A DNA stretch of 64,000 nucleotides from the NCBI RefSeq assembly GCF_036711975.1, contig NC_091966.1, positions 1,805,501 to 1,869,500 on the forward strand. Reading direction: 5' to 3'. The DNA is from Onthophagus taurus. Its lineage: Eukaryota; Arthropoda; Insecta; Coleoptera; Scarabaeidae. How positions within the stretch are numbered: the stretch's first letter is position 1; each line of letters begins with the position of its first letter. The translations under genes and the position numbers were made by a program. Below the pieces are notes generated by a model. It searched no databases, had not been told where the DNA came from, and was given only the letters and a program-made list of their open reading frames with translations. Of this stretch, positions 6,218-44,934 are shown piece by piece.

Positions 6218-6871
6218 TTAAATAAATAAATAAATTAAATATAGTTGACTTACAATTAAAATCAATATAGAGAAGTAAATAGCATCACCGGAATTTGTTT
6301 CACTTTTTGTTGGAAATGTAGGCAGAATGGTTTGAATTATTTGCGAAGTTGTTATCGGATAAAATTTAGATCCACAAGCGCATTTTAAGTGATCCGAGAC
6401 ATTTAGCATAACTTTCGTTAGATTTGGATTATATACAACAACCGGAACTTTTAAATGTTTGCTATTGGCGGCAAAACAAGGCTTTTGGAAATTTGGTAAA
6501 CCAACGCTGGCTGGACACTGATTTGCAATGATGAATATTGGATAAACCTAAATATATAACCTTTATTTATATATAAACAAGATTAAGCTAACAGTTTCTT
6601 ACTCGTTTAGTTCTTAAAGATTTTGGTAACAAATCTCTTGTCCACAGTATCATTTCTTTTGGTAGTGGATTCTCCATGTACTTTTGATACCTTTGCATCA
6701 ATTGGTAGAATTTAACAACCTAAAACAAAAAATTAAATATTTTCCAATTAAGTATAAAAATTAATAAGTACTTACCTGAGGCGTTGGAGATGGAGTTAAA
6801 GTTGGTGTCACACCCATATGACTTAGAATGTTACACAAAATGTACGTGGAAAAAACGTTTAAGACTTTCAT
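6218..6871 (-). CDS. Gene A: divergent secreted PDGF/VEGF-like protein (3 exons)
   Basis: Predicted exons on the minus strand are 6871-6776, 6719-6603 and 6547-6218. Both introns are about 55 bp, with GTAAG donors and TTTAG acceptors, in phase 0. The product is about 180 aa. Residues 1-20 form a weak signal-peptide-like stretch (MKVLNVFSTYILCNILSHMG), followed by a Pro/Thr-rich linker. Exon 2 holds FYQLMQRYQKYMENPLP, matching the SYEKYIKSPQP region of genes B and C. Exon 3 holds QCPASVG, then C after 12 residues, then SDHLKCACGS, the same C-x12-C...C-x-C pattern as the other three. Unlike them it has a tail of about 50 residues with a hydrophobic end; a GTAAGT near 6257 could instead splice to an unseen exon, so the C-terminus is uncertain. 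The promoter lacks the TATA block of B and C. A piggyBac remnant lies just downstream and a TTAA element 150 bp upstream. The receptor and role are unknown. Confidence 0.68.
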
Positions 6872-8145
6872 TGTTTCGCTGATAAAAACGCCGAATGTGT
6901 GAGTACCGATCGTAATAAGGAATTGCCGATAAGTAAACAGAAGTTGAAATGAACCCGGCGCATACAACTCGAGCATGCCACCGACTTGGGCATGCGCTTT
7001 TTACTCCAACATTTCAGTACCTTTAAGAGGATAACCTATTAGCGAAAACAACGAATACCATTTTATTCAGTCATCGTTTGAAATTTTTGTATGTTTGTTA
7101 CATCAAAATTTCTATTTTTTTATATAGTTTTTAGTGATGCATTTAGTTTTTTCAAAAAATGTCGCGTAACGTTTCTAAAATCACGTTTTAAAAAATTTTT
7201 AAAAACGGAATGCATCACCAGGTAGTGAAATGTAAAGTAAATCATATTTAAAGAGTTCAATTTTTTTATTAAATGCAGCAAATTTAAATAAAATGGGTTT
7301 AAAACGTTTAGTCGGTTTTGATTGCTTTCGGAGTATAAATACGGCAACATCGCAAATATTGCTCCGTCCCAAACATTGCCCGAGACATAGTGGAGCTATA
7401 CGAGCTATACCGAGCTCGGTAACCGAGACGTCGGCGTCGGCGTAGTGTCTCCCAAGAAAAACAAACCTGAAGCAATTAATATTTTCGGATAGATCAAAAA
7501 ATTTTTATATCACTAATTTAAATTTAAACATTTAATTTACGTAGAATGCAAAACAATGTTTAAGTGTGGCAATAAATTTTTAATAATGAGAATATTTGCA
7601 CAATTATCTGATCATATACTATTAGATTAATTATTAAAATAAATACAAAATAAATATGAAAAGAATATCACCAAAGGTATATTTTAAAATAAATAATACA
7701 ACATAAATAATAAAAAAATAAATTAACTCATAAAAAACAAAAAATTTTGTTAATAAACAATTTATGCATTTTTTCAAAAATTTTCTGATATAAGGACACT
7801 AAAATTTGACATCGTAAAGAGAAAAGCAATCTCTATCAAATGAGCGTAAGAAAAGGGTACAATGCTATTTAAAAAAATTCAAGTGTTATTCGTTGCTCAT
7901 TTGTTTTCTGAAATATAAACAATTGAATGTTGTCCTATTATGGCAAATAAAATATTAAACAACTTTTGTATAAAATGGTTTTTTATAAAGTCAACATTTA
8001 CCGAGATATATACTATATTCCATAAATAATGGGCACCCTGTATAAAAATATATGTGGTTCTGTAAGTGGTGGCATAATTTCAACCACATATACTGCTAGA
8101 GCAAAAATTATGACAACTAGTGTAAACATTTTTAATCTTTAAATA

Positions 8146-9596
8146 CAGGGTTATTTATTAGCTCACCATTAAACTTTGACATATGATAGCTAATCCAATT
8201 ATCAAAGAACATATGTCCTATTTCAATTATTTACGAAATTATAACACTTTAAAGTTTTCTGCAGCGAATTTATTAATAGTCAGTAAAATCAAACATTCAA
8301 CAAAAACAAACTTGTCATTGTAATATGTCAGTTTGCTGTAAGGTTTAATTATTACATACAAGAAGAAACTCAAAATCTACGCTTATAGCACTGAAGAGTA
8401 TGCTGATATAATTTTCATGTATGGTTTTTGCAATTGAAATGCTCGACAATCAGTACCAGAATATCAAGAAAGATTTCCACAGCGTTATTTGCCATATTAT
8501 TCAGTTTTTAGCGATTCTTTCAGAAGACTTCGAGAAACAGGTAATCCTATTCGACAGCATGTATTTAATGTAGAGGACGAAGAAGCTGTAATTAATGCTG
8601 TTATTGATAATCCTTATATCACCACTCGAAGAATAGCACACAACATACATGTAAGTCAAATATTGCACCGCCAAGTCCTTCATCCGTATCGTAAACAGAA
8701 CGTTGAAGCTCTACAGCCAGGAGATAATCAGCAACGGTTAGCATTTTGTGAATGGTTATTGCAGTAACATGCCCAAAATAATCACTTCATTTCAAATGTT
8801 CTCTGGACAGATGAATCATGTTTTACACGAGATGGTATAAATAATTACTATAATGAACATATCTGGGCATTACAAAATCCGCATGCGATTAGACCAAGAA
8901 AATTTCAACGTTTCAGCATCAACGTTTGGGGTGGAATATTTAACAATTTACTAAGTTTGCATGTACTCGATGGACGTTTGAACGCTGTAAATTACAGATT
9001 TTTTTGAACAATACATTTTTTGATTTACTTAAAGATATACCTCTTAATGTAATTCAAAATATGTGGTACCAGCACAATGGTGCCCACCTCATCGCGGAAG
9101 AGTAGTTGTCGAGTGGTTAAAACAATATTTTCCAAATAAGTGGATTGGTAATAATGTTCCATTTGCTTGGCCACTTAGATCCCCCAACCTTAATCCATTG
9201 GATTTCTACTTATGGGGTCATATGAAACAAATTGTGTATCAAGTGGAAATTAACACACGAGAACAGTTATTAAACAGAATACAAATGGTTGCTACTGAAA
9301 CAAGAAATCAACCAGACATTTGAATTCGGCTGAAGAACTCTTTAATTCATCATTGTGAAGCATGTATTCGTCCTTCAGAAGGAGGCTATTCTGAACAATA
9401 TGTAACAATTGGAACAATTGTAATATTTATGTGTTTTAAAAAAATGTAGCAGTTAATTATAATATAAAAATTAAAACTTTAAAGTGTTATAATTTCGTAA
9501 ATAATTAAAAGGACATATGTTCATTAACATTTTTTTTTTGTAATTGGATTAGCTATCATACGACAAAGTTTGATGGTGAGCTGATAAATCACCCTG
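8146..9596 (+). mobile_element. Tc1/mariner-superfamily element nested in the TTAA element, copy 1
   Basis: The ends are TA-CAGGGTTATTTATTAGCTC on the left and GAGCTGATAAATCACCCTG-TA on the right. Near-identical inverted arms of about 120 bp (8146-8265 and 9480-9596) include AGCTATCATAYG and TCCAATTA. TA dinucleotides at 8144-8145 and 9597-9598 fit the target-site duplication. The total of about 1451 bp is typical for the superfamily. The same element occupies the homologous place in the second TTAA-element copy, so it inserted before that element was copied. Confidence 0.88.
8402..9323 (+). pseudogene. Defective DUF4817/DDE_3-type transposase
   Basis: Read across frames, the region encodes an N-terminal NARQSVPEYQERFPQRYLP segment resembling the insect DUF4817 helix-turn-helix, followed by FRRLRETGN. 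Next come HPYRKQNVEALQPGD and LAFCEWLLQ, then the DDE block: WTDESCF (first Asp, about 8809), INVWGGIF, MWYQHNGA (about 9061) and RSPNLNPLDFYLWGH (about 9178). Lesions are visible. A stop falls at the start of the DUF4817 part (CN*NARQ) and another after WLLQ at 8765. The second catalytic Asp is replaced by Asn in QHNGA, where the family has QHDGA or QDGA. Frameshifts lie near 9000 and 9085. The gene cannot make an active transposase. Confidence 0.85.
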
Positions 9597-10734: not shown

Positions 10735-13700
10735 AAACCTTTCTAACTAAAACAACGAATTACACGTCATCTTAAAGAAGACAGTTTAAGGTTTAATTTG
10801 ATGTTAGGATCGCTTCTTAATTTATAAAATTAAGACTTCCACGATTTTTTTAATTTTATCCTTCTTTTTTGCTATTGGGTTAAACGTCAAAATAACATCG
10901 ATCTCTTTAAAAATGTATTAATGAAAAACCTTTCTAACTAAAATAACGAATTACACGTCATCTTAAAGAAGACAGTTTAAGGTTTAATTTGATGTTAGGA
11001 TCGCTTCTTAATGTATAAAATTAAGTCTTCCACGATTTTTTTAATTTTATCCTTCTTTTTTGCTATTAGTTTAAACGTCAAAATAACATGGATCTCTTTA
11101 AAAATTTATTAATGACAAACCTTTTTAACTAAAACAACGAATTACACGTCATCTTAAAGAAGACAGTTCAAGGTTTAATTTGATGTTAGGATCGCTTCTT
11201 AATGTATAAAATTAAGTCTTCCACGATTTTTTTAATTTTATCCTTCTTTTTTGCTATTAGTTTAAACGTCAAAATAACATGGATCTCTTTAAAAATGTAT
11301 TAATGAAAAACCTTTCTAACTAAAGCAACGAATTACACGTCGTCTTAAAGAGGACAATTTAGGCTTTAATTTGATGTTAGGATCAATTCTTAATTTTTAA
11401 AAATTAGGCCTCCACGATTTATTGAATTTCAACATTCTTATTTTGCTATTAGGTTAAACGTCAAAATAACATCGATCTCTTTAAAAATGTATTAATGAAA
11501 AACCTTTCTAACTAAAATAACGAATTACACAACATTTTAAAGAGGACAATTTAGGCTTTAATTTGATGTAAGAATTGCATTTTAATTTTTTAAAATAAGA
11601 CCTCCTCGATTTTTTGAATTCAAACATTCTTATTTTGCTATTAGGTTAAACGTCAAAATAACATGGATCTCTTTAAAAATGTATTAGTGAAAAACCTTGC
11701 TAACCAATGCAACGAATTACACGTCATCTTAAAGAGGACAATTTAGGCTTTAATTTGATGTTAGGATCGCTTCTTAATTTTTAAAAATAAGACCTCCACG
11801 ATTTATTGAATTTCAACATTCTTATTTTGCTATTAGGTTAAACGTCAAAATAACATGGATCTCTTTAAATATGTATTAATGAAAAACCTTTCTAACTAAA
11901 ACAACGAATTACACGTCATCTTAAAAAGGACAATTTAGGCTTTAATTTGATATTAAGATCGCTTCTTAGTTTTTAAAAATAAGACCTCCACGATTTATTG
12001 AATTTCAACATTCTTATTTTGCTATTAGGTTAAACGTCAAAATAACATGGATCTCTTTAAAAATGTATTAATGAAAAACCTTTCTAACTAAAGCAACGAA
12101 TTACACGTCATCTTAAAGAGGACAATTTAGGCTTTAATTTGATGTTAGGATCGCTTCTTAATTTTTAAAAATAAGACCTCCACGATTTATTGAATTTCAA
12201 CATTCTTATTTTGCTATTAGGTTAAACTCAAAATAACATCGATCTCTTTAAAAATGTATTAATGAAAAACCTTTCTAACTAAAACAACGAATTACACGTC
12301 AGCTTAAAGAAGATAGTTTAAGGTTTAATTTGATGTTAGGATCGCTTCTTAATTTTTAAAAATAAGACCTCCACGATTTATTGAATTTCAACATTCTTAT
12401 TTTGCTATTAGGTTAAACGTCAAAATAACATCGATCTCTTTAAAAATGTATTAATGAAAAACCTTTCTAACTAAAGCAACGAATTACACGTCGTCTTAAA
12501 GAAGACAGTTTAAGGTTTAATTTGATGTTAGGATCGCTTCTTAATTTATAAAATTAAGACTTCCACGATTTTTTTAATTTTATCCTTTTTTGCTATTAGT
12601 TTAAACGTCAAAATAACATGGATCTCTTTAAAAATGTATTAATGAAAAACCTTTCTAACTAAAACAACGAATTACACGTCATCTTAAAGAAGATAGTTTA
12701 AGGTTTAATTTGATGATAGGATCGCTTCTTAATTTTTAAAAATAAGACTTCCACGAATTATTGAATTTCAACATTCTTATTTTGCTATTAGGTTAAACGT
12801 CAAAATAACATGGATCTCTTTAAAAATGTATTAATGAAAACCTTTCTAACTAAAACAACGAATTACGCATCATCTTAAAGTGGATCGTTTAGGCTTTAAT
12901 TTGATGTTACGATCGCTTTTTAATTTTTTAAAATAAGACCTCCACGATTTTTTAAATTTTAACATTCTTTTTTGCTATTAGGTTAAACGTCAAAATAACA
13001 TGGATCTCTTTAAATATGTATTAATGAAAAACTTTTCTAACTAAAAGAACGAATTACACGTCATCTTAAAGGAGACAGTTTAAGGTTTAATTTGATGTTA
13101 GGATCGCTTCTTAATTTAGAAAATTAAGACTTCCACGATTTTTTGAATTTTATCCTTCTTTTTTCTATTAGTTTAAACGTCAAAATAACATGAATCTCTT
13201 TAAAAATGTATTAATGAAAAACCTTTCTAGCTAATACAACGAATTACACGTCGTCTTAAAGAGGACAATTTAGGCTTTAATTTGATGTTAGGATCGCTTC
13301 TTAGTTTTTAAAAATAAGACCTCCACGATTTATTGAATTTCAACATTCTTATTTTGCTATTAGGTTAAACGTCAAAATAACATGGATCTCTTTAAAAATG
13401 TATTAATGAAAAACCTTTCTAACTAAAGCAACGAATTACACGTCATCTTAAAGAGGACAATTTAGGCTTTAATTTGATGTTAGGATCGCTTCTTAATTTT
13501 TAAAAATAAGACCTCCACGATTTATTGAGTTTCAACATTCTTATTTTGCTATTAGGTTAAACGTCAAAATAACATGGATCTCTTTAAAAATGTATTAATG
13601 AAAAACCTTTCTAACTAAAGCAACGAATTACACGTCATCTTAAAGAGGACAATTTAGGCTTTAATTTGATGTTAGGATCGCTTCTTAATTTTTAAAAATA

Positions 13701-16700
13701 AGACCTCCACGATTTATTGAGTTTCAACATTCTTATTTTGCTATTAGGTTAAACGTCAAAATAACATCGATCTCTTTAAAAATGTATTAATTAAAAACCT
13801 TTCTAACTAAAACAACGAATTACACATCATCTTAAAGAGGGCAATTTAGGCTTTAATTTGATGTTAGGACCACTTCTTAATTTTTAAAATTAAGACTTCC
13901 ACGATTTTTTGACTTTAACCTTCTTTTTTGCTATTAGTTTAAACGTCAAAATAACATGGATCTCTTTAAAAATGTATTAATGCAAAACCTTTCTAACTAA
14001 AGCAACGAATTACACGTCGTCTTAAAGAGGGCCATTTAGGCTTTAATTTGATGTTTGGATCGCTTCTTAATTTTTAAAAATAAGACCTCCACGATTTATT
14101 GAATTTCAACATTCTTATTTTGCTATTAGGTTAAACGTCAAAATAACATGGATCTCTTTAAAAATGTATTAATGCAAAACCTTTCTAACTAAAGCAACGA
14201 ATTACACGTCGTCTTAAAGAGGACAATTTAGGCTTTAATTTGATGTTAGGATCGCTTCTTAATTTTTAAAATTAAGACTTCCACGATCTTTTGAATTTTA
14301 TCCTTCTTTTTGCTATTAGTTTAAACGTCAAAATAACATGGATCTCTTTAAAAATGTATTAATGAAAAACTTTTCTAGCTAATACAACGAATTACACATA
14401 ATCTTAAAGAGGGCAATTTAGGCTTTAATTTGATGTTAGGACCACTTCTTAATTTTTAAAATTAAGACTTCCACGATTTTTTGAATTTTACCCTTCTTTT
14501 TTGCCATTAGTTTAAACGTCAAAATAACATGGATCTCTTTAAAAATGTATTAATGAAAAACCTTTCTAACTAAAGCAACGAATTACACGTCGTCTTAAAG
14601 AGGACAATTTAGGCTTTAATTTGATGTTAGGACCACTTCTTAATTTTTAAAATTAAGACTTACACGATTTTTTTAATTTTATCCTTCTTTTTTGCTATTA
14701 GTTTAAACGTCAAAATAACATGGATCTCTTTAAAAATGTATTAATGAAAGAACCTTTTTAACTAAAACAACGAATTACACATCATCTTAAAGTGGACAAT
14801 TTAGGCTTTAATTTGATGTAAGGATTGCATTTTAATTTTTAAAAATAAGACCTCCACGATTTATTGAATTTCAACATTCTTATTTTGCTATTAGGTTAAA
14901 CGTCAAAATAACATGGATCTCTTTAAAAATGTATTAATGAAAAACCTTTCTAACTAAAATAACGAATTACACGTTATCTTAAAGAAGACAGTTTAAGGTT
15001 TAATTTGATGTAAGGATCGCTTCTTAATTTTTAAAATTAAGACTTCCACGATTTTTTGACTTTAACCTTCTTTTTTGCTATTAGTGTAAACGTCAAAATA
15101 ACATGGATCTCTTTAAAAATGTATTAATGTAAAACCTTTCTAACTAAAACAACGAATTACACGTCCTCTTGAAGAAGACAGTTTAAGGGTTAATTTGATA
15201 TTAGGATCGCTTCTTAATTTTTAAAAATAAGACCTCCGCGATTTATTGAATTTTAACATTCTTATTTTGCTATTAGGTTAAACGTCAAAATAACATGGAT
15301 CTCTTTAAAAATGTATTAATAAAAAACCTTTCTAACACAAACAACGAATTATACATCATCTTAAAGTGGACAATTTAGGCTTTAATTTGATGTTAGGATC
15401 GCTTCTTAATTTTTAAAAATAAGACCTCCACGATTTTTTGAATTTTAACATTCTCATTTTGCTATTAGATTAAACGTCAAAATAACATGGATCTCTTTAA
15501 AAATGTATTAATGAAAAACATTTCTAACTAAAACAACGAATTACACGTCATCTTAAAGAAGATAGTTTAAGGTTTAATTTGATGTTAGGATCGCTTCTTA
15601 ATTTTTAAAATTAAGACTTCCACGATTTTCTGAATTTTATTCTTCATTTTTGCTATTAGTTTAAACATCAAAATATCATGGATCTCGTTAAAGATGTATT
15701 AATGAAAAACCTGTCTAACGAAAACAACGAATTACACATCATCTTAAAGAGGACAATTTAGGCTTTAATTTGATGTTAGGGTCGCTTTTTAATTTTTAAA
15801 AATAAGACCTCCACGATTTATTGAATTTCAACATTCTTATTTTGCTATTAGGTTAAACGTCAAAATAACATCGATCTCTTTAAAAATGTATTAATGAAAA
15901 ACCTTTCTAACTAAAGCAACGAATTACTCGTCGTCTTAAAGAGGACAATTTAGGCTTTAATTTGATGTTAGGATCGCTTCTTAGTTTTTAAAAATAAGAC
16001 CTCCACGATTTATTGAATTTCAACATTCTTATTTTGCTATTAGGTTAAACGTCAAAATAACATCGATCTCTTTAAAAATGTATTAATGAAAAACCTTTCT
16101 AACTAAAGCAACGAATTACACGTCGTCTTAAAGAGGACAATTTAGGCTTTAATTTGATGTTAGGACCACTTCTTAATTTTTAACATTAAGACTTCCACGA
16201 TTTTTTGAATTTTATCCCTCTTTTTTGCGATTAGTTTAACGTCAAAATAACATGGATCTCTTTAAAAATGTATTAATGAAAAACCTTTCTAACTAAAGCA
16301 ACGAATTACACGTCGTCTTAAACAGGACAATTTAGGCTTTAATTTGATGTTGGGATCGCTTCTTAATTTTTAAAAATAAGACCTCCACGATTTTTTGAAT
16401 TTTAACATTCTCACTTTGCTATTAGATTAAACGTCAAAATAACATGGATCTCTTTAATAATGTATTAATGAAAAACCATTCTAACTAAAACAACGAATTA
16501 TACATCATGTTAAAGTGGACAATTTAGGCTTTAATTTGATGTTAGGATCGCTTCTTAATTTTTAAAAATAAGACCTCCACGATTTTTTGAATTTTAACAT
16601 TCTCATTTTGCTATTAGATTAAACGTCAAAATAACATGGATCTCTTTAAAAATGTATTAATGAAAAACCTTTCTAATTAAAACAACGAATTACACGTCAT

Positions 16701-16924
16701 CTTAAAGAAGACAGTTTAAGGTTTAATTTGATGTTAGGACCGCTTCTTAATTTTTAAAATTAAGACTTCCACGTTTTTTTGAATTTTATCCTTCTTTTTT
16801 GCTATTAGTTTAAACGTCAAAATAACATGGATCTGTTTAAAAATGTATTAATGGAAACCTTTCTAACTAAAGCAACGAATTACACGTTTTCTTAAAGAAG
16901 ATAATTTAGGCTTTTATTTGCTGT
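10735..16924. repeat. Sat2 array 1: tandem satellite, about 191-bp monomer, about 32 copies
   Basis: The landmark TAAACGTCAAAATAACAT recurs at 10881, 11072, 11263, 11455 and onward, spaced 191-192 bp. Two monomer types alternate irregularly. Type A has GAAGACAGTTTAAGG with a TTTTTTAATTTTATCC segment. Type B has GAGGACAATTTAGG with TTATTGAATTTCAACATTC. Mixed monomers suggest gene conversion or unequal exchange. There is no coding potential. Confidence 0.97.
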
Positions 16925-17458
16925 TAGGGTTGTTACAATTTTTTTAAATTAGTACATATTTTTACTTTGAGGTTTAACATTGAAAAGCATCAATATGACG
17001 AAACCAAAATGACTGTTACACTTGGCCAACTATTGTAAAAGATAAGCATTTGATGATGTCAAATGAGGGAACCTTTGAACAGATAAACATGCGTTCAAGA
17101 CGAAAGCAACGTAATTAAGTCGGATTTACACAACATTCAGAGTAACCACTTTGTGAATGCGCAACGTGTAAATGCCGCATTATTCGCCTACTGTGTCTGG
17201 ACCGTCTGGACGCACCGTCTACTGTTGGCAAAAATAGACCATATCAAGACGTAATTTTGTGTGTCAGGATCACGTCGATATCTGCATATATTTAGTCTCT
17301 CGTTTACATTTTTATTCAGTGTAATTTTTTGTATAATTTTAATGATTTATTTAATTTCTTTCTTGTGATCACAAACTTAATAAGTTCTATTTGTTCCCTG
17401 ATGAAACAATATTAGAGATAACGTTAAAGTAAGAAATGTATCGATGTAATTCTTAATG
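16925..17458. repeat. Sat2 tail, copy 1 (about 540-bp segmental duplication)
   Basis: This non-satellite segment starts after the last Sat2 monomer (GCTGTTAGGGTTGTTAC) and runs to the TTAA of the inverted element. It is nearly identical to 25088-25643 at the end of the second Sat2 array, with only scattered substitutions and small indels, for example ATGCGTTCAAG against ATGCGCCTCAAG. There is no ORF. Confidence 0.93.
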
Positions 17459-29700: not shown

Positions 29701-30880
29701 TTAAAATGGTTTTTAAATCAGCTTGATATCTTAGTTAGTTTCTGAGATATGATTTTTTCAAAATTGTCGTTTATAATATTAAGATGTCGCAAGTAAATGT
29801 GTAAAGGTGAATTAAAAAAATCACCACGTCTAAAATTATAGAAATAAACCAATGATTTCCAACTTAATAAATATCAATTACATCACCTTTAGCATGGTTT
29901 ATATTTCATGGTAATATCTCAATTCGTTTTTGAGATACAATATTTTAAATTGCGTTGATTACAACTTGACGTCATTAATGACGGGATGGAATTAAAAAAA
30001 TTGTATCACCTGGATTTATTGAAACGAAGGAAATGCTTTTTGGGTATTAAAAGCTGATTAAATTTGCTTTAAAATGGTTCGTAAATCAGTTTGATATCTC
30101 AGTTAGTTTCTGAGATATGATTTTTTCAAAATTGTCGTTTTTAATATTAAGGTGTCACAAGTAAATGTGTAGAGGTGAATTAAAAAAATCACCACGTTTA
30201 AAATTGTGGAAATAAACTAATGATTTTCAACTTAATAAATATTAATTAAATCACCTTTAGCATGGTTTATATTTCATGGTAATATCTCAATTCGTTTTTG
30301 AGATACGATATTTTAAATTGCGTTGATTAGAAGTTAACGTCATTAATGACGGGATGGAATTAAAAAAATTGTATCACCTGGATTTATAGGAACGAAGGAA
30401 AAGTTTTTTGGGTGTTAAAAGCTGATTAAATTTGGTTTAAAATGGTTCGTAAATCAGTTTGATATCTCAGTTAGTTTCTGAGATATGATTTTTTCAAAAT
30501 TGTCGTTTTTAATATTAAGGTGTCACAAGTAAATGTGTAGAGGTGAATTAAAAAAATCACCACGTTTAAAATTGTGGAAATAAACTAATGATTTTCAACT
30601 TAATAAATATTAATTAAATCACCTTTAGCATGGTTTATATTTCATGGTAATATCTCAATTCGTTTTTGAGATACAATATTTTAAATTGCGTTCATTACAA
30701 GTTAACATCATTAATGACAGGATGGAATTAAAAAAATTGTATCACCTAGATTTATTGCAACGAAGGAAATGTTTTTTGGGTATTAAAAGCTGATTAAATT
30801 TGCTTTAAAATGGTTCTTAAATCAGCTTGATATCTCAGTTAGTTTCTGAGATATGATTTTTTCAAAATTAGTCTTTATAA
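26781..30880. repeat. Sat3: dimeric satellite, 368-bp unit of two about 184-bp halves, about 11 copies
   Basis: TAGAGGTGAATTAAAAAAAT recurs at about 27223, 27591 and 27960, spaced 368-369 bp. Each unit has two related halves. One carries GATATCTCAGTTAGTTTCTG followed by AGATATG; the other carries AATATCTCAATTCGTTTTTG followed by AGATAC. Both halves keep a dyad (TATCTCAR, 6-7 bases, YTGAGATA), so the unit is a diverged monomer pair amplified as a dimer. The array ends near 30880, where the last unit diverges after TCTTTATAATTTCAGC. Confidence 0.95.
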
Positions 30881-31439
30881 TTTCAGCTGTTATAAGTGAC
30901 CATAACTTCTGTTTACTGTTAAAATTGAAGATACAATATGTTTAATTAGGAAGATCTAGGTCTAAATGAAAAACAATGTTGTTGAAATAGATAGTTTAAA
31001 TATAGAGAAGTAAATATAACTCAAAGTTTAACACATTTAATCCATTCAAAGTAAATCTTTATAAATTTTTGGACCGATATCTTTTTTTTTAAAACTTTTT
31101 TCCGAATTTAACTTCAACCACATATTCCATTTTTTTGTTAATTCTTCTGCTTTACATTTTCTAACACAGTCCTAGATTTTAATAGATAATCATACGGGTT
31201 TTGGACACTTTCGAATGATATGCCCCACCGGTTTAACCTACAATTTAATTATTATAATACACTTCTCGGATCTATTCCCGGAAAAATGTTTCTTTTGGAA
31301 ATAATATTATCATACGACTCGGGTGATTTCATATATTTCTGCATTATTCGTTGAAACCTCACTTCCTAAAAGTCAAATATTTTAATAAAACTTCGTTAAT
31401 TTCTATTCGTAAAAATTCACCATTGAAGAAGAATTTGCG
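30881..31439. other. AT-rich spacer without recognisable genes
   Basis: No ORF with coding character, no terminal repeats and no tandem structure were seen. Confidence 0.5.
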
Positions 31440-31830
31440 GTTAATGCTGAGTAAAAGTATCTAGTCTTCTGTAAACAGTGTCTAGTCATCTGGAAACAAT
31501 ATTTAAGCTTTTGCAAGTAGTATCTAGTTTGCTATAATCAGCACCTGATCTTCGACTATGGAAATCTTATTAGTCTTCTGAAAACAATGTTTAATCTTCT
31601 GCAAATAGTAAGTTGTTCGCTATAAGCAGTATCTAATATTACTACTATGACATTTTGATCTATTACGAGTAGTATCTAGTCTTCTGCAAGCAATATCTAG
31701 TCTGCTATAAGCAATATTTAATCTTCTACAATGAAAATTTTTAATTTTGCAAGCACTATAGTTTTTTTCAAGCTATATGTCGTTTTCTGAAAGGTTCAAA
31801 TAGTGTGTAATCTTCATCACGCAGTGTCTA
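31440..31830. repeat. Degenerate minisatellite of about 30-bp units
   Basis: Imperfect units of the form TATCTAGTCTTCTGCAAGCA recur roughly every 28-35 bp, with variants TCTAGTTTGCTATAATCAGC and TTTAATCTTCTGCAAATAGT. They are strongly decayed and no unit is exact. An open frame at 31845-32057 just downstream shows no homology I recognise and is probably chance. Confidence 0.7.
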
Positions 31831-32249: not shown

Positions 32250-32272
32250 TATTCCAACTTATAATTACAAAA

Positions 32273-32779
32273 TTAACACGCACAACTCGTTTCGTGTTTA
32301 ACCAACACCGTTTTCATGACTCTCCCCCTTGCAAGATTGACCTCGACTACCATTTGTTCTTCTTGAAAATCACTGGCTTTGCATCTCCTTTCATTTCCAT
32401 CAAAACCAATTTTTTCTGGACATCTCTGAACCACAACTCCTTGTGGTGTAACCTTTATTAAAAAAAAATTGATTAATATTTTTGATTCATTTCTTAACTC
32501 GTTAATAAACTTACACCTCGCGCATTTATTTCCTTAATTTCTGGTAAATCCCTGGATGAGATGAGAATGTGGGATGGCTGAGGTGATTTAATATATTTTT
32601 CGTAACTCGCCATCGTTTTCGCAAATAATTTATGCTAAATAAAAAAATGAATGTGAATAAAACAACTTTCCTTTAATAAAACAATTGTTACTTACCATTG
32701 ATGAATTATTTTCAATTGATGGTGCAGCTTTGGCGAATAAAACACAACATAAAACACTAAACGCTATACTAAGATACAT
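32273..32779 (-). CDS. Gene B: secreted cysteine-poor PDGF/VEGF-like protein, 127 aa (3 exons)
   Basis: Minus-strand exons are 32779-32696, 32634-32515 and 32452-32273, with introns of 61 and 62 bp, GTAAG donors and AG acceptors in phase 0. Residues 1-19 (MYLSIAFSVLCCVLFAKAA) are a clear signal peptide. Exon 2 encodes the SYEKYIKSPQPSHILISSRD region. Exon 3 encodes VTPQGVVVQRC, a cysteine 12 residues later, a V-rich strand and VKHETSCAC at the very end. This follows the second half of the PDGF/VEGF fold (VxxxRC...C...HxxCxC, with about 32 residues between the second and third cysteines). The cysteines corresponding to CI, CII, CIV and CV are absent. The start is the only Met before the signal peptide. 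A TATTTATAC box lies about 90 bp upstream and an AATAAA about 105 bp downstream. It may be a receptor-tyrosine-kinase ligand or a derived secreted factor. Confidence 0.8.
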
Positions 32780-32865: not shown

Positions 32866-32940
32866 GTATAAATACCCAACAATACGTCATCATATTGCAT
32901 AGAAGTTCCGTCGTCTACGTAAAGAAATGTTTGTGGTTTT
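32866..32940 (-). promoter_or_regulatory. Gene B core promoter: TATA box and conserved upstream block
   Basis: On the minus strand, GTATTTATAC (32875-32866) lies about 90 bp before the start codon and is followed by GATATT. Upstream are CGTAGACGACG (near 32910-32920) and AACCACA (32938-32932). The same order of elements precedes gene C. AACCACA is the reverse of TGTGGTT, the RUNX-type consensus; use by such a factor is inference. Confidence 0.5.
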
Positions 32941-33094: not shown

Positions 33095-36000
33095 TGCTAT
33101 TTTTATGAATTTATTTCTCAAGAACAAACAGAGATATTAAAAAGCTGTTTAATGATTTAGATTCGATAACTAATTTAAGTTTCTAAATTTAGTTTCTCCA
33201 CTCTCACTCGAAACGTCGTCTTAAATCGGATATCTTTTTAGGTTATTTTTAGGAATTTATTTCTCAATAACGAAGCGAGATATCAAAAAGCGGTTTATTG
33301 CTTTAGATTCGATAACTAATTCTAAATGAATCTACCAAATTTAGTTTTTCCATTCTTAATGATGAGTGAGAGACACATTTTTGAAATCAACCTTACTACA
33401 AACCGTTATCTAAAATCGGATATCCTGTTAGGTTATCTTTAGGAATTTATTTCTCAGGAACAAAGTGAGATATCAAAAAGCGGTTTCTTGCTTTAGTTTC
33501 TATAACTAGTTCAAATTAAATCCACCAAATTTAATTTTTTGATTCCTATTAATAAGTGAGATATTAATTTTTTAAATCAAGCTTGTAACGAAACGTCAAT
33601 TTCAACCGGAATTTTTACGTTATCTTTAAGAATTTATTACTCAAGAACTAATTGAGATATCAAAAAGCGGTTTGCTGTTTTAGATTTGACAACTAATTCT
33701 AAATAAATTCCCCAAATTTAGTTTTTCCATTCTTATTAATAAGTGAGAAATTAATTTTTAAAATCAAGCTTAAAACGAAATGTCAATTTAAACCAGATTT
33801 TTTTAGGTTATCTTTAAGACTTTATTGCTCAAGAACTAATTGAGATATCAAAAAGCGGTTTGCTGTTTTAGATTCGACAACTAATTCTGAATAAATTCAC
33901 CAATTTTAATTTTTCCATTCTTATTAAGAAGTGAGATATTAATTTTTTAAATCAAGCTTGTAACGAAACGTCAATTTCAACTGGACTTTTTACGTTATCT
34001 TTAAGAATTTATTACTTAAGAACTAATTGAGATATTAAAAAGCGGTTTGTTGTTTTAAATTTGGCAACTAATTCTAAATAAATCCCCCAAATTTAGTTTT
34101 TCCATTCTTATTAATAAGTGAGAAATTAATTTTTAAAATCAAGCTTAAAACGAAATGTCAATTTAAACCAGATTTTTTTAGGTTATCTTTAAGACTTTAT
34201 TGCTCAAGAACTAATTGAGATATCAAAAAGCGGTTTGCTGTTTTAGATTCGACAACTAATTCTGAATAAATTCACCAATTTTAATTTTTCCATTCTTATT
34301 AAGAAGTGAGATATTAATTTTTTAAATCAAGCTTGTAACGAAACGTCAATTTCAACCGGAATTTTTACGTTATCTTTAAGAATTTATTACTCAAGAACTA
34401 ATTGAAATATCAAAAAGCGGTTTGCTGTTTTAGATTTGACAACTAATTCTAAATAAATCTCCCAAATTTAGTTTTTCCATTCTTATTAATAAGTGAGAAA
34501 TTAATTTTTAAAATCAAGCTTAAAGCGAAATGTCAATTTAAAACAGATTTTTTTAGGTTACCTTTACGAATTTATTGCTCAAGAACTAATTGAGATATCA
34601 AAAAGGTGTTTGCTATTTTAGATTCGACAACTAATTCTGAATAAATTCACCAATTTTAATTTTTCCATTCTTATTAAGAAGTGAAATATTAATTTTTTAA
34701 ATCAAGCTTGTAACGAAACGTCAATTTCAACCGGAATTTTTACGTTATCTTTAAGAATTTATTACTCAAGAACTAATACAGATATCAAAAAGCGGTTTGC
34801 TGTTTTAGATTTGACAACTAATTCTAAATAAATCCCCCAAATTTAATTTTTCCATTTTTATTAATAAGTGAGAAATTAATTTTTAAAATCAAACTTAAAG
34901 CGAAATTTTCTTAAGTTACCTTTACGAATTTATTACTCAAGAACTAATTGAGATATCAAAAAGGGGTTTGCTGTTTTAGATTCGACAACTAATTCTGAAT
35001 AAATCCCCCAAATTTAGTTTTTCCATTCTTATTAAGAAGTGAGATATTAATTTTTTAAATCAAGCTTGTAACGAAACGTCAATTTAAACAAGATTTTTTT
35101 AGGTTATCTTTAAGAATTTATTACTCAAGAACTAATTGAGATATCAAAAAGCGGTTTGCTATTTTAGATTCGATAACTAATTCTGAATAAATTCACCAAT
35201 TTTAATTTTTCCATTCTTATTAATAAGTGAGATATTAATTTTTTAAATCAAGCTTGTAACCAAACGTCAATTTCAACCGGATTTTTTACGTTATCTTTAA
35301 GAATTTATTACTCAAGAACTGATTGAGATATCAAAAAGCGGTTTGCTGTTTTAGATTCGACAACTAATTCTGAATAAATTCACCAATTTTAATTTTTCCA
35401 TTCTTATTAGTAAGTGAGATATTAATTTTTTAAATTAAGCTTGTAACGGAACGTCAATTTCAACCAAAATTTTTACGTTATCTTTAAGAATTTATTACTC
35501 AAGAACTAATTGAGATATCAAAAAGCGGTTTGCTGTTTTAAATTCACCAATTTTAATTTTTCCATTCCTATTAAGAAGTGAGATATTAATTTTTTAAATC
35601 AAGCTTGTAACGAAACGTCAATTTCAACTGGACTTTTTACGTTATCTTTAAGAATTTATTACTTAAGAACTAATTGAGATATTAAAAAGCGGTTTGTTGT
35701 TTTAAATTTGGCAACTAATTCTAAATAAATCCCCCAAATTTAGTTTTTCCATTCTTATTAATAAATGAGAAATTAATTTTTAAAATCAAGCTTAAAGCGA
35801 AATGTCAATTTAAACAAGATTTTTTTAGGTTATCTTTAAGAATTTATTACTCAAGAACTAATTGAGATATCAAAAAGCGGTTTGCTGTTTTAGATTCGAC
35901 AACTAATTCTGAATAAATTCACCAATTTTAATTTTTCCATTCTTATTAAGAAGTGAGATATTAATTTTTTAAATCAAGCTTGTAAAGAAACGTCAATTTC

Positions 36001-38245
36001 AACCGGACTTTTTACGTTATCTTTAAGAATTTATTACTCAAGAACTAATTGAGATATCAAAAAGCGGTTTGTTGTTTTAGATTTGACAACTAATTCCAAC
36101 TAAATCCTCCGAATATAGTTTTTCCATTCTTATTAATAAGTGAGATATTAATTTTTTAAATCAAGCTTGTAACGAAACGTCAATTTCAACCGGAATTTTT
36201 ACGTTATCTTTAAGAATTTATTACTCAAGAACTAATTGAAATATCAAAAAGCGGTTTGCTGTTTTAGATTTGACAACTAATTCTAAATAAATCTCCCAAA
36301 TTTAGTTTTTCCATTCTTATTAATAAGTGAGAAATTAATTTTTAAAATCAAGCTTAAAGCGAAATGTCAATTTAAACAAAATTTTTTTAGGTTATCTTTA
36401 AGACTTTATTACTCAAGAACTAATTGAGATATCAAAAAGCGGTTTGTTATTTCAGATTCGATAACTAATTCAGAATAAATTCACCAATTTTAATTGTTCC
36501 ATTCTTATTAATAAGTGAGATATTAATTTTTTAAATCAAGCTTGTAACGAAACGTCAATTTCAACCGGACTTTTTACGTTATCTTTAAGAATTTATTACT
36601 CAAGAACTAAATGAGATATCAAAAAGCGGTTTGTTGTTTTAAATTTGACAACTAATTCTAAATAAATCCCCCAAATTTAGTTTTTCCATTCTTATTAATA
36701 AATGAGAAATTAATTTTTAAAATCAAGCTTAAAGCGAAATGTCAATTTAAAGCAGATTTTTTTAGGTTACCTTTACGAATTTATTGCTCAAGAACTAATT
36801 GAGATATCAAAAAGGGGTTTGCTATTTTAGATTCGATAACTAATTCTGAATAAATTCACCAAATTTAATTTTTTCATTCTTATTAATAAGTGAGATATTA
36901 ATTTTTTAAATCAAGCTTGTAACGAAACGTCAATTTCAACCGGATTTTTTACGTTATCTTTAAGAATGTATTACTCAAGAACTAATTGAGATATCAAAAA
37001 GCGGTTTGTTATTTCAGATTCGATAACTAATTCAGAATAAATTCACCAATTTTAATTGTTCCATTCTTATTAATAAGTGAGATATTAATTTTTTAAATCA
37101 AGCTTGTAACGAAACGTCAATTTCAACCGGACTTTTTACGTTATCTTTAAGAATTTATTTCTCAAGAACTAATTGAGATATCAAAAAGCGGTTTGCTGTT
37201 TTAAATTTGACAACTAATTCTAAATAAATCCTCCAAATTTAGTTTTTTCGTTCTTATTAATAAGTGAGAAATTAATTTATTAAAATCAAGCTTAAAGCGA
37301 AATGTCAATTTAAACAAGATTTTTTTAGGTTATCTTTAAGACTTTATTACTCAAGAACTAATGGAGATATCAGAAAGCGGTTTGTTATTTTAGATTCGAT
37401 AAGAAATTCTGAATAAATTCAACAAATTTAATTTTTCCATTCTTGTTAATAAGTGAGATATTAATTTTTTAAATCAAGCTTGTAACGAAACGTCAATTTC
37501 AACCGGATTTTTTACGTTATCTTTAAGAATGTATTACCCAAGAACTAATTGAGATATCAAAAAGCGGTTTGCTGTTTTAGATTTGACAACTATTTCTAAA
37601 TAAATCCTAAAAATTTAGTTTTTCCATTCTTATTAATAAATGAGAAATTAATTTTTAAAATCAAGCTTAAAGCGAAATGTCAATTTAAACAAGATTTTTT
37701 TAGGTTATCTTTAAGAATTTATTACTCAAGAACTAATTGAGATATCAAAAAGCGGTTTGCTGTTTTAGATTCGACAACTAATTCTGAATAAATCCCCCAA
37801 ATTTAGTTTTTCCATTCTTATTAAGAAGTGAGATATTAATTTTTTAAATCAAGCTTGTAACGAAACGTCAATTTAAACAAGATTTTTTTAGGTTATCTTT
37901 AAGAATTTATTACTCAAGAACTAATTGAGATATCAAAAAGCGGTTTGCTGTTTTAGATTTAACAACTAATTCTAAATAAATCCCCTAAATTTAGTTTTTC
38001 CATTTCTATTAATAAGTGAGAAATTAATTTTTAAAATCAAGCTTAAAACAAAATGTCAATTTAAACAAGATTTTTTTCGGTTATCTTTAAGAATTTATTA
38101 CTCAAGAACTAATGGAGATATCAAAAAGCGGTTTGTTGCTTTAGATTCGATAACTAATTCTTAATAAATTCACCAAATTTAGTTTCTCCACACTTATTAA
38201 TAACCGAGAAATAAATTTTTTAAATCAAGCTTGTAACGAAACGTC
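33095..38245. repeat. Sat4: tandem satellite, about 187-bp monomer, about 27 copies, partly dimeric
   Basis: GATATCAAAAAGCGGTTTG recurs at 33291, 33481, 33668, 33856, 34043 and onward, spaced 187-190 bp. Two monomer types tend to alternate. One has AACCGGAATTTTTACGTTATC with TTTTTTAAATCAAGCTTGTA; the other has GATTTTTTTAGGTTATC with TTTTTAAAATCAAGCTTAAA. This gives a 375-bp higher-order pattern. The first three and the last monomers are the most diverged, as expected at array edges. No coding region was seen. Confidence 0.96.
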
Positions 38246-38642
38246 AACTTAGAACCTTAAACAATTTGTGTTAAAATCTTTAATATGAATGCATTTTATC
38301 AACCAACTTGAATTTATTATTAATGAAAATATTACTTTTGGATGATATCAACTTTACGTCATGTTTATGAGTAATGTAGAATATTTAAAATGAAGGAATT
38401 TTTAGCCTGTTAAACAATTCTGCTTGACTTTTTATTCATTTTATGTCCATCTATATGTTCTAATTATTAAATGAATTAAACAAACTAAAATATTGTTAAT
38501 AAATATATATTTCTAAATACACAATTAATACAATTTTTGGCTATTAGAGTACATACAATAAATAACATATAAAATAAATAATTTAAATTCACAAATAAAT
38601 AATAATAACACTCATATATCACATTGTTAAAGAATAAGTTCA
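38246..38642. other. AT-rich 3' flank of gene C
   Basis: No gene was found. A plus-strand TTTATT at 38431-38436 gives a minus-strand AATAAA that could serve as gene C's polyadenylation signal, about 270 bp past the stop. The rest is low-complexity AATAAATA-type sequence. Confidence 0.4.
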
Positions 38643-38667: not shown

Positions 38668-38702
38668 AAATTCAAAATCGATTTCCTAGTTATTAAGACT
38701 AA

Positions 38703-39253
38703 TTATAAACATTCACATTTCGTTTCGTGTTCAACCGTTATATGTTTCATGACCCTTCCCTTTGCAAGATAGACTTCAAGTACCATTTCCTCCATTTCGG
38801 AATCGATGGCTTTGCATCGCTTTTCATTTCCTCTAAAACCAATTTTTTCGGGACATTTTCTAACAACAACTCCTTGTGGCGTCACCTTTAATAAAATTAA
38901 AAAAAATTGAAGGTTATTTTCGTCTCATTTTTTAGTCGGCAATAAACTTACATTTCGCGCACTTATTTCTTTAATATCTTTTAAAGCCCTTGCGGAAACA
39001 AGCGTGTAGTATGGTTCAGGTGATTTCATGAAATTTTCGTATCTGCTCCTCGTTTTCAAAAATAGCGTTTTCTAAACAACAAGTAATTAAAGTAAGAATA
39101 GAAAGTAAGATAAGAGTGTAAATGAAAATTAGTTTAAAAATTATTACTTACCATTGAAGAATTTGGTATATCGTTTCCGCTTAATGGTGCAGCTTTGGCG
39201 TATAAAACACAGCATAAAAGAGTGGCGAACAATACACTGATTGTAAGATGCAT
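38703..39253 (-). CDS. Gene C: secreted cysteine-poor PDGF/VEGF-like protein, 134 aa (3 exons)
   Basis: Minus-strand exons are 39253-39152, 39071-38952 and 38885-38703, with introns of 80 and 66 bp, GTAAGT donors and AG acceptors in phase 0. Residues 1-22 (MHLTISVLFATLLCCVLYAK, then AA) are a signal peptide. Exon 2 has RYENFMKSPEPYYTLVSARA, which can be laid against the CxPxxTLV strand of vertebrate VEGFs with Pro in place of the first cysteine. Exon 3 has VTPQGVVVRKC, then C after 12 residues, then TVEHETKCECL. Between the second cysteine and the final CxC are 32 residues, close to VEGF. It is the closest paralogue of gene B, sharing SSM at the exon 1 end, VTPQGVVV, CPEKIGF, LA+GRVMK, and matching promoter and 3' UTR. 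It probably arose by recent duplication, with Sat4 now between the two. Confidence 0.82.
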
Positions 39254-39354: not shown

Positions 39355-39398
39355 GTATAAATACTGTACGTCGTTTACGATAAAAAAAGTTTGTGGTT
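39355..39398 (-). promoter_or_regulatory. Gene C core promoter: TATA box and conserved upstream block
   Basis: The minus strand has GTATTTATAC (39364-39355) about 105 bp before the ATG, followed by GGGATATT. Upstream are CGTAAACGACGTAC and AACCACAAAC (AACCACA at 39398-39392), in the same order as in gene B. Confidence 0.5.
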
Positions 39399-39599
39399 GT
39401 AGAGAGGAAGGAGTTAGCCAGCCTAGTCATACAGTGTTGTTACGCAATGTGGGTAAATTTTAAAAATATATATCCTAGCCTTTTGATGTAAAAATAAAAA
39501 ATGATAAGATTTTATTTATAAAGAATATACCACAAATTGAGAAGGATAAAGTTAATGAGTTATTTATAGTGTATCTTGAAAGTTAAATAAAGTTTTTAA

Positions 39600-42558
39600 T
39601 ACGGCTAAACCTAAATGTTTCTAGTTCTAAGTGTAATGTTAGTTCTAGTGACAGTGGTAGGTAGCGCTAGATAGCATAAGATAACACTATGATGCATTTT
39701 TTTTATTGCACTAAAACTGGAACAAGAACTAGAACTTCTAGTCACTAAGGACGGCTAAACCCGAATGATTCTAGTTCTAGTGTTAGTTCTAGTGATAATG
39801 TTAGTGTAAAACTAGAACTAACACTAGACCTAGAACTGGAAACATTCGGGTATAGTTCTAGTTTTACACTAACACTATCATTAGAACTAACACAAGACCT
39901 AGAACTAGAATCATTCGGGTTTAGCCGTCTTTAGAGACGTGTGGCTAAACCCGAATGTTTCTAGTTCTAGGTCTAGTGTTAGTTCTAGTTTTACACTAAC
40001 ACTATCATTAGAACTAACACAAGATCTAGAACTAGAATCATTCGGGTTTAGCCGTCTTTAGAGACGTGCGGCTAAACCCGAATGCTTCTAGTTCTAGGTC
40101 TAGTGTTAGTTCTAGTTTTACACTAACACTGTCACTAGAACTAACAGAAGACCTAGAACTAGAATCATTCGGGTTTAGCCGTCTTTAGAGACGTGCGGCT
40201 AAACCCGAATGTTTCTAGTTCTAGGTCTAGTGTTAGTTCAAGTTTTACACTAACACTATCATTAGAACTAACACAAGATCTAGAACTAGAATCATTCGGG
40301 TTTAGCCGTCTTTAGAGACGTGCGGCTAAACTCGAATGTTTCTAGTTCTAGGTCTAGTGTTAATTCTAGTTTTACACTAACACTGTCACTAGAACTAACA
40401 CAAGATCTAGAACTAGAATCATTCGGGTTTAGCCGTCTTTAGAGACGTGCGGCTAAACTCGAATGTTTCTAGTTCTAGGTCTAGTGTTAATTCTAGTTTT
40501 ACACTAACACTGTCACTAGAACTAACACAAGATCTAGAACTAGAATCATTCGGGTTTAGCCGTCTTTAGAGACGTGCGGCTAAACTCGAATGTTTCTAGT
40601 TCTAGGTCTAGTGTTAATTCTAGTTTTACACTAACACTGTCACTAGAACTAACACAAGATCTAGAACTAGAATCATTCGGGTTTAGCCGTCTTTAGAGAC
40701 GTGCGGCTAAACTCGAATGTTTCTAGTTCTAGGTCTAGTGTTAATTCTAGTTTTACACTAACACTGTCACTAGAACTAACACAAGATCTAGAACTAGAAT
40801 CATTCGGGTTTAGCCGTCTTTAGAGACGTGCGGCTAAACCCGAATGTTTCTAGTTCTAGGTCTAGTGTTAGTTCTAGTTTTACACTAACACTATCATTAG
40901 AACTAACACAAGATCTAGAACTAGAATCATTCGGGTTTAGCCGTCTTTAGAGACGTGCGGCTAAACCCGAATGTTTCTAGTTCTAGGTCTAGTGTTAGTT
41001 CTAGTTTTACACTAACACTATCATTAGAACTAACACAAGATCTAGAACTAGAATCATTCTGGTTTAGCCGTCTTTAGAGACGTGCGGCTAAACCCAAATT
41101 ATTCTAGAATTCTAGAACCCTAATGTTTTTAGTTCTAGGTCTAGTGTTAGTTCTAGTTTTACACTAACACTGTCACTAGAACTAACACAAGACCTAGAAC
41201 TAGAATCATTCAGGTTTAGCCGTCTTTAGAGACGTGCGGCTAAACCTGAATGTTTCTAGTTCTAGGTCTAGTGTTAATTCTAGTTTTACACTAACACTGT
41301 CACTAGAACTAACACAAGACCTAGAACTAGAATCATTCGGGTTTAGCCGTCTTTAGAGACGTGTGGCTAAACCCGAATGTTTCTAGTTGTAGGTCTAGTG
41401 TTAGTTCTAGTTTTACACTAACACTGTCACTAGAACTAACAGAAGACCTAGAACTAGAATCATTCGGGTTTAGCCGTCTTTAGAGACGTGCGGCTAAACC
41501 CGAATGTTTCTAGTTCTAGGTCTAGTGTTAGTTCAAGTTTTACACTAATACTATCATTAGAACTAACACAAGATCTAGAACTAGAATCATTCGGGTTTAG
41601 CCGTCTTTAGAGACGTGCGGCTAAACCCGAATGTTTCTAGTTCTAGGTCTAGTGTTAGTTCTAGTTTTACACTAACACTGTCACTAGAACTAACACAAGA
41701 CCTAGAACTAGAATCATTCAGGTTTAGCCGTCTTTAGAGACGTGCGGCTAAACCTGAATGTTTCTAGTTCTAGGTCTAGTGTTAATTCTAGTTTTACACT
41801 AACACTGTCACTAGAACTAACACAAGACCTAGAACTAGAATCATTCGGGTTTAGCCGTCTTTATAGACGTGTGGCTAAACCCGAATGTTTCTAGTTCTAG
41901 GTCTAGTGTTAGTTCTAGTTTTACACTAACACTATCATTAGAACTAACACAAGATCTAGAACTAGAATCATTCGGGTTTAGCCGTCTTTAGAGACGTGCG
42001 GCTAAACCCGAATGTTTGTAGTTTTAGGTCTCGTGTTAGTTCTAGTTTTAAATATTGTTTAGCGTTAGATAGTGGTATATTTTTATTGAAAGAAAAGTAG
42101 AACTAACACTAGACCTGGAACCAGAAACATTCGGATTTAGCCGCACGTCTCTAAAGACGGCTAAACCCGAATGATTCTAGTTCTAGGTCTTGTGTTAGTT
42201 CTAGTGATAGTGTTAGTGTAAAATTAGAACTAACACTAGAACTAGAAACATTCGGGTTTAGCCACACGCCTCTAAAGACAGCTAAACCCGAACGATTCTA
42301 GTTCTAGGTCTAGTTTTTGGTTCTAGTTTTACACCAATACTATGACTACAACTAACACTATCATTAGAACTAACACAAGACCTAGAACTAGAATCATTCG
42401 GGTTTAGCCGTCTTTAGAGACGTGTGGCTAAACCCGAATGTTTCTAGTTCTAGGTCTAGTGTTATTTCTATAGTGATATCTTATGCTAACTAGCGCTACC
42501 TACCATTGTCACTAGAACTAACATTAGACCTAGAACTAAAAACATTCAGATTAAACCG
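39600..42558. repeat. Array of 127-bp self-complementary hairpin units, about 20 copies
   Basis: TTTAGCCGTCTTTAGAGACG recurs every 127 bp (for example 40048, 40175 and 40302). Each unit starts GGCTAAACCCGAATG and ends CATTCGGGTTTAGCC. In between, CTAGTTCTAGGTCTAGTGTT pairs with its near-complement on the other side of the central TTTTACACTAACAC. Every monomer is therefore a long imperfect hairpin, itself built from TCTAGT-like hexamers. The linker GTCTTTAGAGAC is also a palindrome. Edge units at 39600-39900 and 42040-42560 are rearranged. Related pieces occur at 59386-59612 and about 26615-26700. Confidence 0.96.
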
Positions 42559-42564
42559 TCTTAA

Positions 42565-42996: not shown

Positions 42997-43379
42997 TAAG
43001 AATTTGTTAATAGTAACAGAAATGAAGACCCAAATGGGATAGAATTAAAAACCCCAACGTCACAGACCAATGTGAGATGGAGAAGAGATTTTGGCACAAA
43101 CGGCTGCCAAAAATTGTGCACAAATAACTCGCCCAGAATCAGACCACCAATGAGATGCAGAGACTAGCGGTTAACTTCTTGGGAGATGACTACTAGCTCA
43201 TCAACTCCGACACGCTGATTGCAGAACTTCGCTGACAGGGAGCTGTTTCATAACATCGTCTTATTCAGACGTCGAGACATCCTGTGCTTTATTCAGTCAC
43301 TTTATAATGTAGCAAAAACCGAGCCGTAACGCTCACTTTCGCAAAGCTCGTTCTGACTCTATGATGATGTTCTCTCGTG

Positions 43380-43640
43380 TTTCTGAAACTTGTCTAAATG
43401 ATTGGAAACTATTCCAGTTTGTTCAAAATGATTCAAAACTGCAATTAAATAGCCCAAAATAAGTTTTTAACATTACCTAATTGTTCAAAATGATTGAAAA
43501 TTAATTTGGTACTCATTGAAAACATGTCTAAATGATTCTGAACTAATTCAAAGCTGTTCCAAGTTGTTCGAAATGATGAAAAATTAATTAAAACTTGCCT
43601 GAATAGTTTTTGAAGTAATTCATTATTATCAGGTTGTTCA
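43380..43640. repeat. TTCAAAATGATT short tandem repeats
   Basis: Units of about 25-60 bp built on GTTCAAAATGATTGAAAA, GTCTAAATGATT and AACTAATTC recur imperfectly. The same motifs make up the 267-bp repeats around 59615-60171 and 62288-62780, so this is a diverged member of that family. Confidence 0.7.
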
Positions 43641-44427
43641 AAATATATACAAATATATACAAGTATAGACATATACAAAGAATGTAAAAAAAGAATAAAA
43701 TATTAATGTCAATTTTTAATTGTCTTAATCATTAAATTGCCATTTCTGTTGGTAAGATAAATGGACCTATCTGTTTATCAATAAGATTATATCTAATGTT
43801 GATGTTTGCTTGTTCTTGTCTAATAAAAATTTTAGAACATTTTTACAACATAACATGAAGAGACCCAACATTTTTTTAATTATTCATTAATTTTTATCTC
43901 TCATTTCCCCTCTTTTACCATAACCCGTTCATGTTTCAACAAGATTGCTTTTTGATAGACCAAATGACTCCGTCGGAGAAACCAACAAAGTAATTACATC
44001 TTCGTGGATTCCCGGTGGGGAATCCCGGCACCACCCATCTTTTCTTTATGACATATAAACCTCCTACTTTATTAATAAATACCTCGATATAAACAATTAA
44101 ATTTTTTTTAAAGAAAATTTTTGGTTTTTTAATAAAAATTCTAATTATTGAAAGGTTCGCGTGAAAGTTTTCCTTTCATCGAAATGAAACATCATCTGAA
44201 TATATTAAGTCAATTGTTTCTTAAGAATTCGATCATGACTAAGTCGTCAGGACACAGGAAGTGAATTTCAACAAATAAAGAAATTAAATTATTTAGTCCT
44301 TTTATTGCACAAATTTTAAATACAATTAATTGAAATAATAAAAATATATAATAAATAAATATTCTTAAAACAAATATCACATTTTAACTTATAAACTAAT
44401 TAATTCATCTAATAGGAGTTAAACAGT
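43641..44427. other. AT-rich 3' flank of gene D
   Basis: No gene is visible. A minus-strand AATAAA (44306-44301) lies about 120 bp past gene D's stop and fits as its polyadenylation signal. Near 44010-44030 is an inverted GGATTCCC...GGGAATCC in an otherwise AT-rich stretch. Confidence 0.45.
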
Positions 44428-44934
44428 TTAAGGTTTACAGTCGCACTTAGTGTGTTCTACAGTGTGTATTTTATGCATTTTATTAACTGGTTTATTTCCG
44501 GTCATTACTGTAAAATTTATTTCAATGGTAATTTTTCTTTCTTCAATACTTTTACAAACAAAAGTTTTATTAGAAAATACAATTTCTTTGTGGCAACGGC
44601 GTAGTACAACTCCTTTTGGGATCACCTAAAACATTTATACCATTATTATAATAATATTGATTATTAATGAATCAAAACCTACATCGATTGTATTATTCAA
44701 AAATGTTCTTGTTGAAATCAAAGTCAAAGGTGGTTCGGGATTCTCCAAGAAATCAGAATACATTTTTACAGCACTTCTAAATTTTATAATCTATATAAAA
44801 AAAAAATTATTATTAAATATTATTATATTTAAAAAAAAAATTGTAATTACCTTTTCTTTATGAGACTCCGTTGGTGCACATTGTATAGTCGATATTAAGA
44901 AAAAGATTACAAGAATGATCGGGATGGAATTCAT
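44428..44934 (-). CDS. Gene D: secreted cysteine-poor PDGF/VEGF-like protein, 129 aa (3 exons)
   Basis: Minus-strand exons are 44934-44851, 44790-44683 and 44625-44428, with introns of 60 and 57 bp, donors GTAATT and GTAGGT, AG acceptors, phase 0. Residues 1-20 (MNSIPIILVIFFLISTIQCA) are a signal peptide. Exon 2 has VKMYSDFLENPEPPLTLIST, parallel to YENFMKSPEPYYTLVSA of gene C. Exon 3 has VIPKGVVLRRC, C after 12 residues, then TVEHTKCDCKP, the most VEGF-like ending of the four. Candidate N-glycosylation sites are NNT, NKT and NFT. It is about as far from B and C as a separate paralogue would be and lacks their 3' motif. A TATTTAAG sequence lies about 100 bp upstream, immediately followed by a palindromic insertion (45049-45181). 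Confidence 0.8.

Follow-up and report, generated by a model that had tools for sequence, protein, structure and literature searches.

The stretch of Onthophagus taurus DNA analysed here (the window, 64,000 nucleotides of contig NC_091966.1, assembly GCF_036711975.1) carries four small genes, named A to D, on its minus strand between positions 6218 and 44934. They were located by a six-frame scan followed by splice-site reading, and each comprises three exons (Table 1). B and C are spaced by 5.9 kb, C and D by 5.2 kb, and A and B by 25.4 kb. Satellite arrays, which take up a large part of the window, lie between the genes. An earlier interpretation based on the letters of the DNA (the sequence-only reading) had described the genes as a dispersed family. 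This term is misleading, because all four are in one orientation with kilobase-scale gaps and satellite arrays between them; the locus is a same-strand array with intervening satellites.

Both introns of each gene are predicted to be in phase 0, to have GT...AG ends and to lie at equivalent places. These assignments, like the splicing of A to D as a whole, are predictions from sequence only, and the splice-site reading bears out the four three-exon genes proposed before. With a best 10-residue hydropathy of 2.9-3.5, the N-terminal hydrophobic stretches of B, C and D are pronounced, whereas that of A, at 1.7, is less so; a signal peptide had previously been assigned to all members. A simple rule places plausible cleavage sites in the proteins, the N-terminus of A being the weakest case, and the products are probably secreted. 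The 3' end of gene A is uncertain: its reading frame closes with a hydrophobic C-terminal tail resembling a glycosylphosphatidylinositol-anchor signal (6218-6255, minus strand). Alternatively, an in-frame phase-0 donor, GTAAGT, at 6253 could splice to an unseen fourth exon.

Table 1. Position of the genes, the probable broken copy, TATA-like elements and satellite arrays in the window
Feature	Position	Strand	Remarks
Gene A	6218..6871	-	exons 6871-6776, 6719-6603, 6547-6218; 180 residues; most divergent member
Gene B	32273..32779	-	exons 32779-32696, 32634-32515, 32452-32273; 127 residues; last residue is CVIII
Gene C	38703..39253	-	exons 39253-39152, 39071-38952, 38885-38703; 134 residues; one residue beyond CVIII
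Gene D	44428..44934	-	exons 44934-44851, 44790-44683, 44625-44428; 129 residues; two residues beyond CVIII
Probable broken fifth copy	31060..31431 (boundaries approximate)	-	remnants of exon 1 end, exon 2 and exon 3; frame breaks and stops
TATA-like TATTTATA	32867..32874	-	95 bases upstream of B start codon; resemblance only
TATA-like TATTTATA	39356..39363	-	110 bases upstream of C start codon; resemblance only
TATA-like TATTTAAG	45030..45037	-	103 bases upstream of D start codon; resemblance only
Satellite array	368-5153		unit ~190 bases
Satellite array	10735-16928		unit ~192/382 bases
Satellite array	20371-25066		unit ~192/383 bases
Satellite array	26859-30881		unit ~368 bases
Satellite array	33209-38256		unit ~187/375 bases
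Satellite array	39853-42050		unit ~127/254 bases
Satellite array	51745-52796		unit ~351 bases

Common descent and a probable broken copy

Similarity between the genes was detected within the window by tblastn, which connected B with C (E=9e-36), C with D (E=4e-8) and exon 2 of B with exon 2 of A (E=8e-4). Leave-one-out profiles recovered the held-out gene with 45.0 (A), 117.4 (B), 125.2 (C) and 53.2 (D) bits. As a control, 2000 decoys per gene were created in which residues 1-20 were unchanged and the remainder was shuffled. Among the decoys reported, none reached the real score (0 of 1788 for A, 0 of 2000 each for B and C, 0 of 1973 for D). When A was held out and its exons were searched singly among the 1913 open stretches of the window, exon 2 was found with E=8e-5 and exon 3 with E=0.016, which makes exon 3 of A the weakest link. 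Common descent of A to D can be regarded as almost certain.

A probable fifth copy, broken and overlooked by the sequence-only reading, sits between a satellite array and B. It was detected by the profile with E=0.002 and matched C in two collinear pieces (E=4e-4 with a 500-base target). Taken with the array itself, this remnant suggests an evolution through birth and death by local duplication. Short 21-base tandem repeats lie just upstream of it, at 31451-31502 and 31673-31731.

Cysteine pattern and relation to PDGF/VEGF

A, B, C and D have in common a C-x12-C followed by C-x-C, with a second spacing of x31 (A), x32 (B and C) or x36 (D). Of the motif C-x12-C-x(29-34)-C-x-C put forward earlier, the x12 spacing and the C-x-C apply to all four genes, whereas the x36 of D lies outside the range given. 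In six-frame scans of the window, the relaxed pattern C-x(8-16)-C-x(26-40)-C-x-C occurred in four stop-free stretches, every one on the minus strand, and C-x12-C-x(29-40)-C-x-C was observed four times; in 200 mononucleotide shuffles, the latter averaged 0.015 occurrences and never exceeded 1.

D passes the Pfam model PF00341 with 28.2 bits against a cut-off of 27, and VEGF-E takes the top two of its 17 rows among PDB sequences (E=0.0033 and 0.0039); the remaining 15 are unrelated proteins. In the profile search suggested with the earlier motif, A, B and C gave no PF00341 row up to E=10. C alone matched no chain among the PDB sequences. Thus, the assignment of A, B and C runs through D, to which the other three are tied by the tblastn matches and leave-one-out profiles. 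A profile of all four genes ranked VEGF-E first (E=0.025); PDGF-B followed, after three unrelated proteins, with E 2.7-3.4, a result that is weak alone. A PDGF/VEGF origin of the genes, direct for D and via D for A to C, is very probable.

Other families were considered as well. A, B and C matched no Pfam family above its cut-off: A reached 14.8 bits with PF20885 (cut-off 36) and B 16.9 bits with PF08475 (cut-off 24), both of which were dismissed, and C gave no row. NCBIfam returned a single weak and irrelevant match for one of the four members (E=0.061), Rfam gave no match at gathering scores, and among 142 pattern matches in IMG/VR viral contigs no relatives were found by tblastn. A viral origin, prompted by VEGF-E as the best PDB match of D, was dropped because the genes have introns and the similarity to VEGF-E is at family level only.

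In the alignment of D to VEGF-E, cysteines of D fall on CIII, CVI, CVII and CVIII, i.e. four of the eight family cysteines, while CI lies in a gap and the positions of CII, CIV and CV are taken by G, V and F. The four family cysteines of D recur at the aligned positions in A, B and C, which contain none further outside the N-terminal stretch, in agreement with the surviving and missing cysteines named by the sequence-only reading. The disulfides within a VEGF chain are CI-CVI, CIII-CVII and CV-CVIII, while CII and CIV bridge the two chains; in the cystine knot, CI-CVI passes through the ring that CIII-CVII and CV-CVIII form. Given this pairing scheme, the absence of CI and CV means that the classical ring and its threading bond cannot form.

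AlphaFold models were analysed for the exon 3 cores of D and A. Both cores match PDGF/VEGF first, although with weak scores and less specifically for A. Among the matches listed for D, PDGF/VEGF structures fill Foldseek rows 1 to 32 and rows 1 to 35 of the 50 from VIA, and the engineered VEGF-A disulfide mutants PDB 1mjv, 1mkg and 1mkk are included. The core of A also matched C. elegans alpha2/beta5, norrin, LH, hCG, TSH, VWF CK and FSH at tied Z (3.8-4.8 across the 50 rows listed), with FSH in Foldseek rows 2 and 4. Such ties would be expected if the genes belonged to another cystine-knot family, such as glycoprotein hormones or norrin, and resembled PDGF/VEGF by general architecture only. 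Nevertheless, D lies above the PF00341 cut-off, VEGF-E comes first in the sequence searches and PDGF/VEGF leads the rows of the D model, which makes this alternative highly improbable. None of the Pfam, PDB and four-gene-profile rows is a glycoprotein hormone or norrin.

Interpretation and genomic surroundings

On balance, we lean towards the explanation that A to D are locally duplicated, small and probably secreted PVF-like homologues with little beyond the homology domain, representing a knot-depleted branch of the PVFs. Each chain would fold as a PDGF/VEGF protomer and retain CIII-CVII as one native bond. CVI and CVIII, whose partners CI and CV are lost, may form a bond with one another or remain unpaired, and two chains would associate without a covalent bridge. 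A protomer that is depleted of the knot yet folded appears plausible. The products might act extracellularly, with a PVR-type receptor or the animal's classical PVFs as targets, and might serve as weak agonists, as competitors or as partners in heterodimers. That they work through a PVR-type receptor is conceivable but falls somewhat short of probable. The more far-reaching proposal of knot-free ligands with a PDGF/VEGF fold, having one native bond, possibly a CVI-CVIII pair and a non-covalent or monomeric state, and serving as antagonists of PVF/PVR signalling in the animal itself or as its private modulators, is rather unlikely. Any natural family in which the sequence signature has persisted although half of the cysteines are gone would provide an evolutionary test of how much of the knot is required by the fold and by receptor binding, and would be a source of candidate PVF antagonists.

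Two observations weigh against a functional knot-depleted branch. An excerpt of PMC8065220 calls knot formation essential for the VEGF-A monomer. Furthermore, the introns of B and C are 72% and 80% alike, roughly as much as exons 2 and 3 (70% and 76%; all values for aligned columns); exon 1 is 82% alike and the 300-base flanks 66% on each side. The similarity of the introns, the probable broken copy and the loss of four of the eight family cysteines would also suit decaying PVF duplicates which are becoming pseudogenes and have lost cysteines through relaxed constraint, without function. On the other hand, full frames and splice sites are present, the same four cysteines are kept in all four genes despite deep divergence, and TATA-like elements are found at similar distances in B, C and D. 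Moreover, the comparison of B with C over 127 codons gave a nonsynonymous rate (dN) of 0.254 and a synonymous rate (dS) of 0.558 (ratio 0.454), with an excess of synonymous over nonsynonymous change (Fisher p=0.0017, from rounded counts). Decay is therefore judged quite improbable. In comparisons with D, synonymous sites are near saturation (pS 0.70-0.72).

The genes might also encode PVF-derived effectors that are secreted by a gland, as venom or saliva, and aimed at another organism. Their small size, the N-terminal hydrophobic stretches, the local array with its probable broken copy and the strong divergence between members are in line with this, and PF00341 proteins from paper-wasp and honeybee venom are reported in an excerpt of PMC8402607. 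However, the Polistes venom protein described there is larger (36 kDa), and the dN/dS of 0.45 for B and C reveals no excess of nonsynonymous change. We consider such effectors unlikely and retain the knot-depleted PVF branch as the preferred reading.

Besides the array, the window harbors several transposon-related sequences. Two fragments of a DDE_Tnp_1_7 transposase, which we take to be of the piggyBac type, are located at 5009-5899 (minus strand). A remnant of a Mariner/Tc-like transposase was recognized by eye at 8438-9330 (plus strand); the part of it that was scanned, 8438-8764, scored 16.9 bits with PF01498, below the cut-off of 31.5. Two long RVT_1 reverse transcriptase frames at 54747-56432 (plus strand) and 60290-62332 (minus strand) are probably non-long terminal repeat retrotransposons.

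Comparison with known systems

In an excerpt of PMC10328876, the eight-cysteine pattern is called a hallmark of the PDGF/VEGF growth-factor group, within which non-covalent dimers exist, and intermolecular disulfides are described as absent from protostomes as a rule. Because of this rule, the absence of CII and CIV is less novel than the sequence-only reading had supposed. The PDGF/VEGF family and the loss of dimer cysteines are already known; what appears new, in the sense of not having been seen in the literature searched, is that CI and CV are also lost in every member of the array and that the products of B, C and D stop at the domain. Literature searches restricted to open-licence PubMed Central revealed no tandem PVF family depleted of the knot.

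In line with what is proposed for A to D, Drosophila Pvf1-3, the ligands of Pvr, are secreted protostome ligands with a PDGF/VEGF domain, three in one genome. The Drosophila proteins are longer, with extra C-terminal sequence, and by this description B, C and D, which end 0-2 residues after CVIII, are set apart from them. A further difference is that all four genes studied here are without the knot cysteines CI and CV and the two dimer cysteines. For Drosophila Pvf2, an excerpt of PMC7752135 states that the conserved cysteine needed for the knot is missing, while the missing cysteines are described as the inter-chain ones in PMC10328876. According to the latter paper, cnidarian VEGFs and C. 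elegans PVF-1 resemble the array in often being without one or both inter-chain cysteines, an absence which, as a legend there cautions, may partly be an alignment artefact.

The best PDB sequence match of D, VEGF-E of Orf virus (PDB 2gnn, 3v6b), is similar at family level and differs in having the cysteines CI, CII, CIV and CV, all four of which D lacks. The introns of A to D speak for ordinary eukaryotic genes. The VEGF-A mutants 1mjv, 1mkg and 1mkk each lack, by title, one bridge and thus two cysteines, whereas A to D lack four. In an excerpt of PMC3328748, the mutant work is cited to the effect that no bridge raises thermodynamic stability, and the differences of the disulfide mutants are confined to loops or to the arrangement of the monomers.
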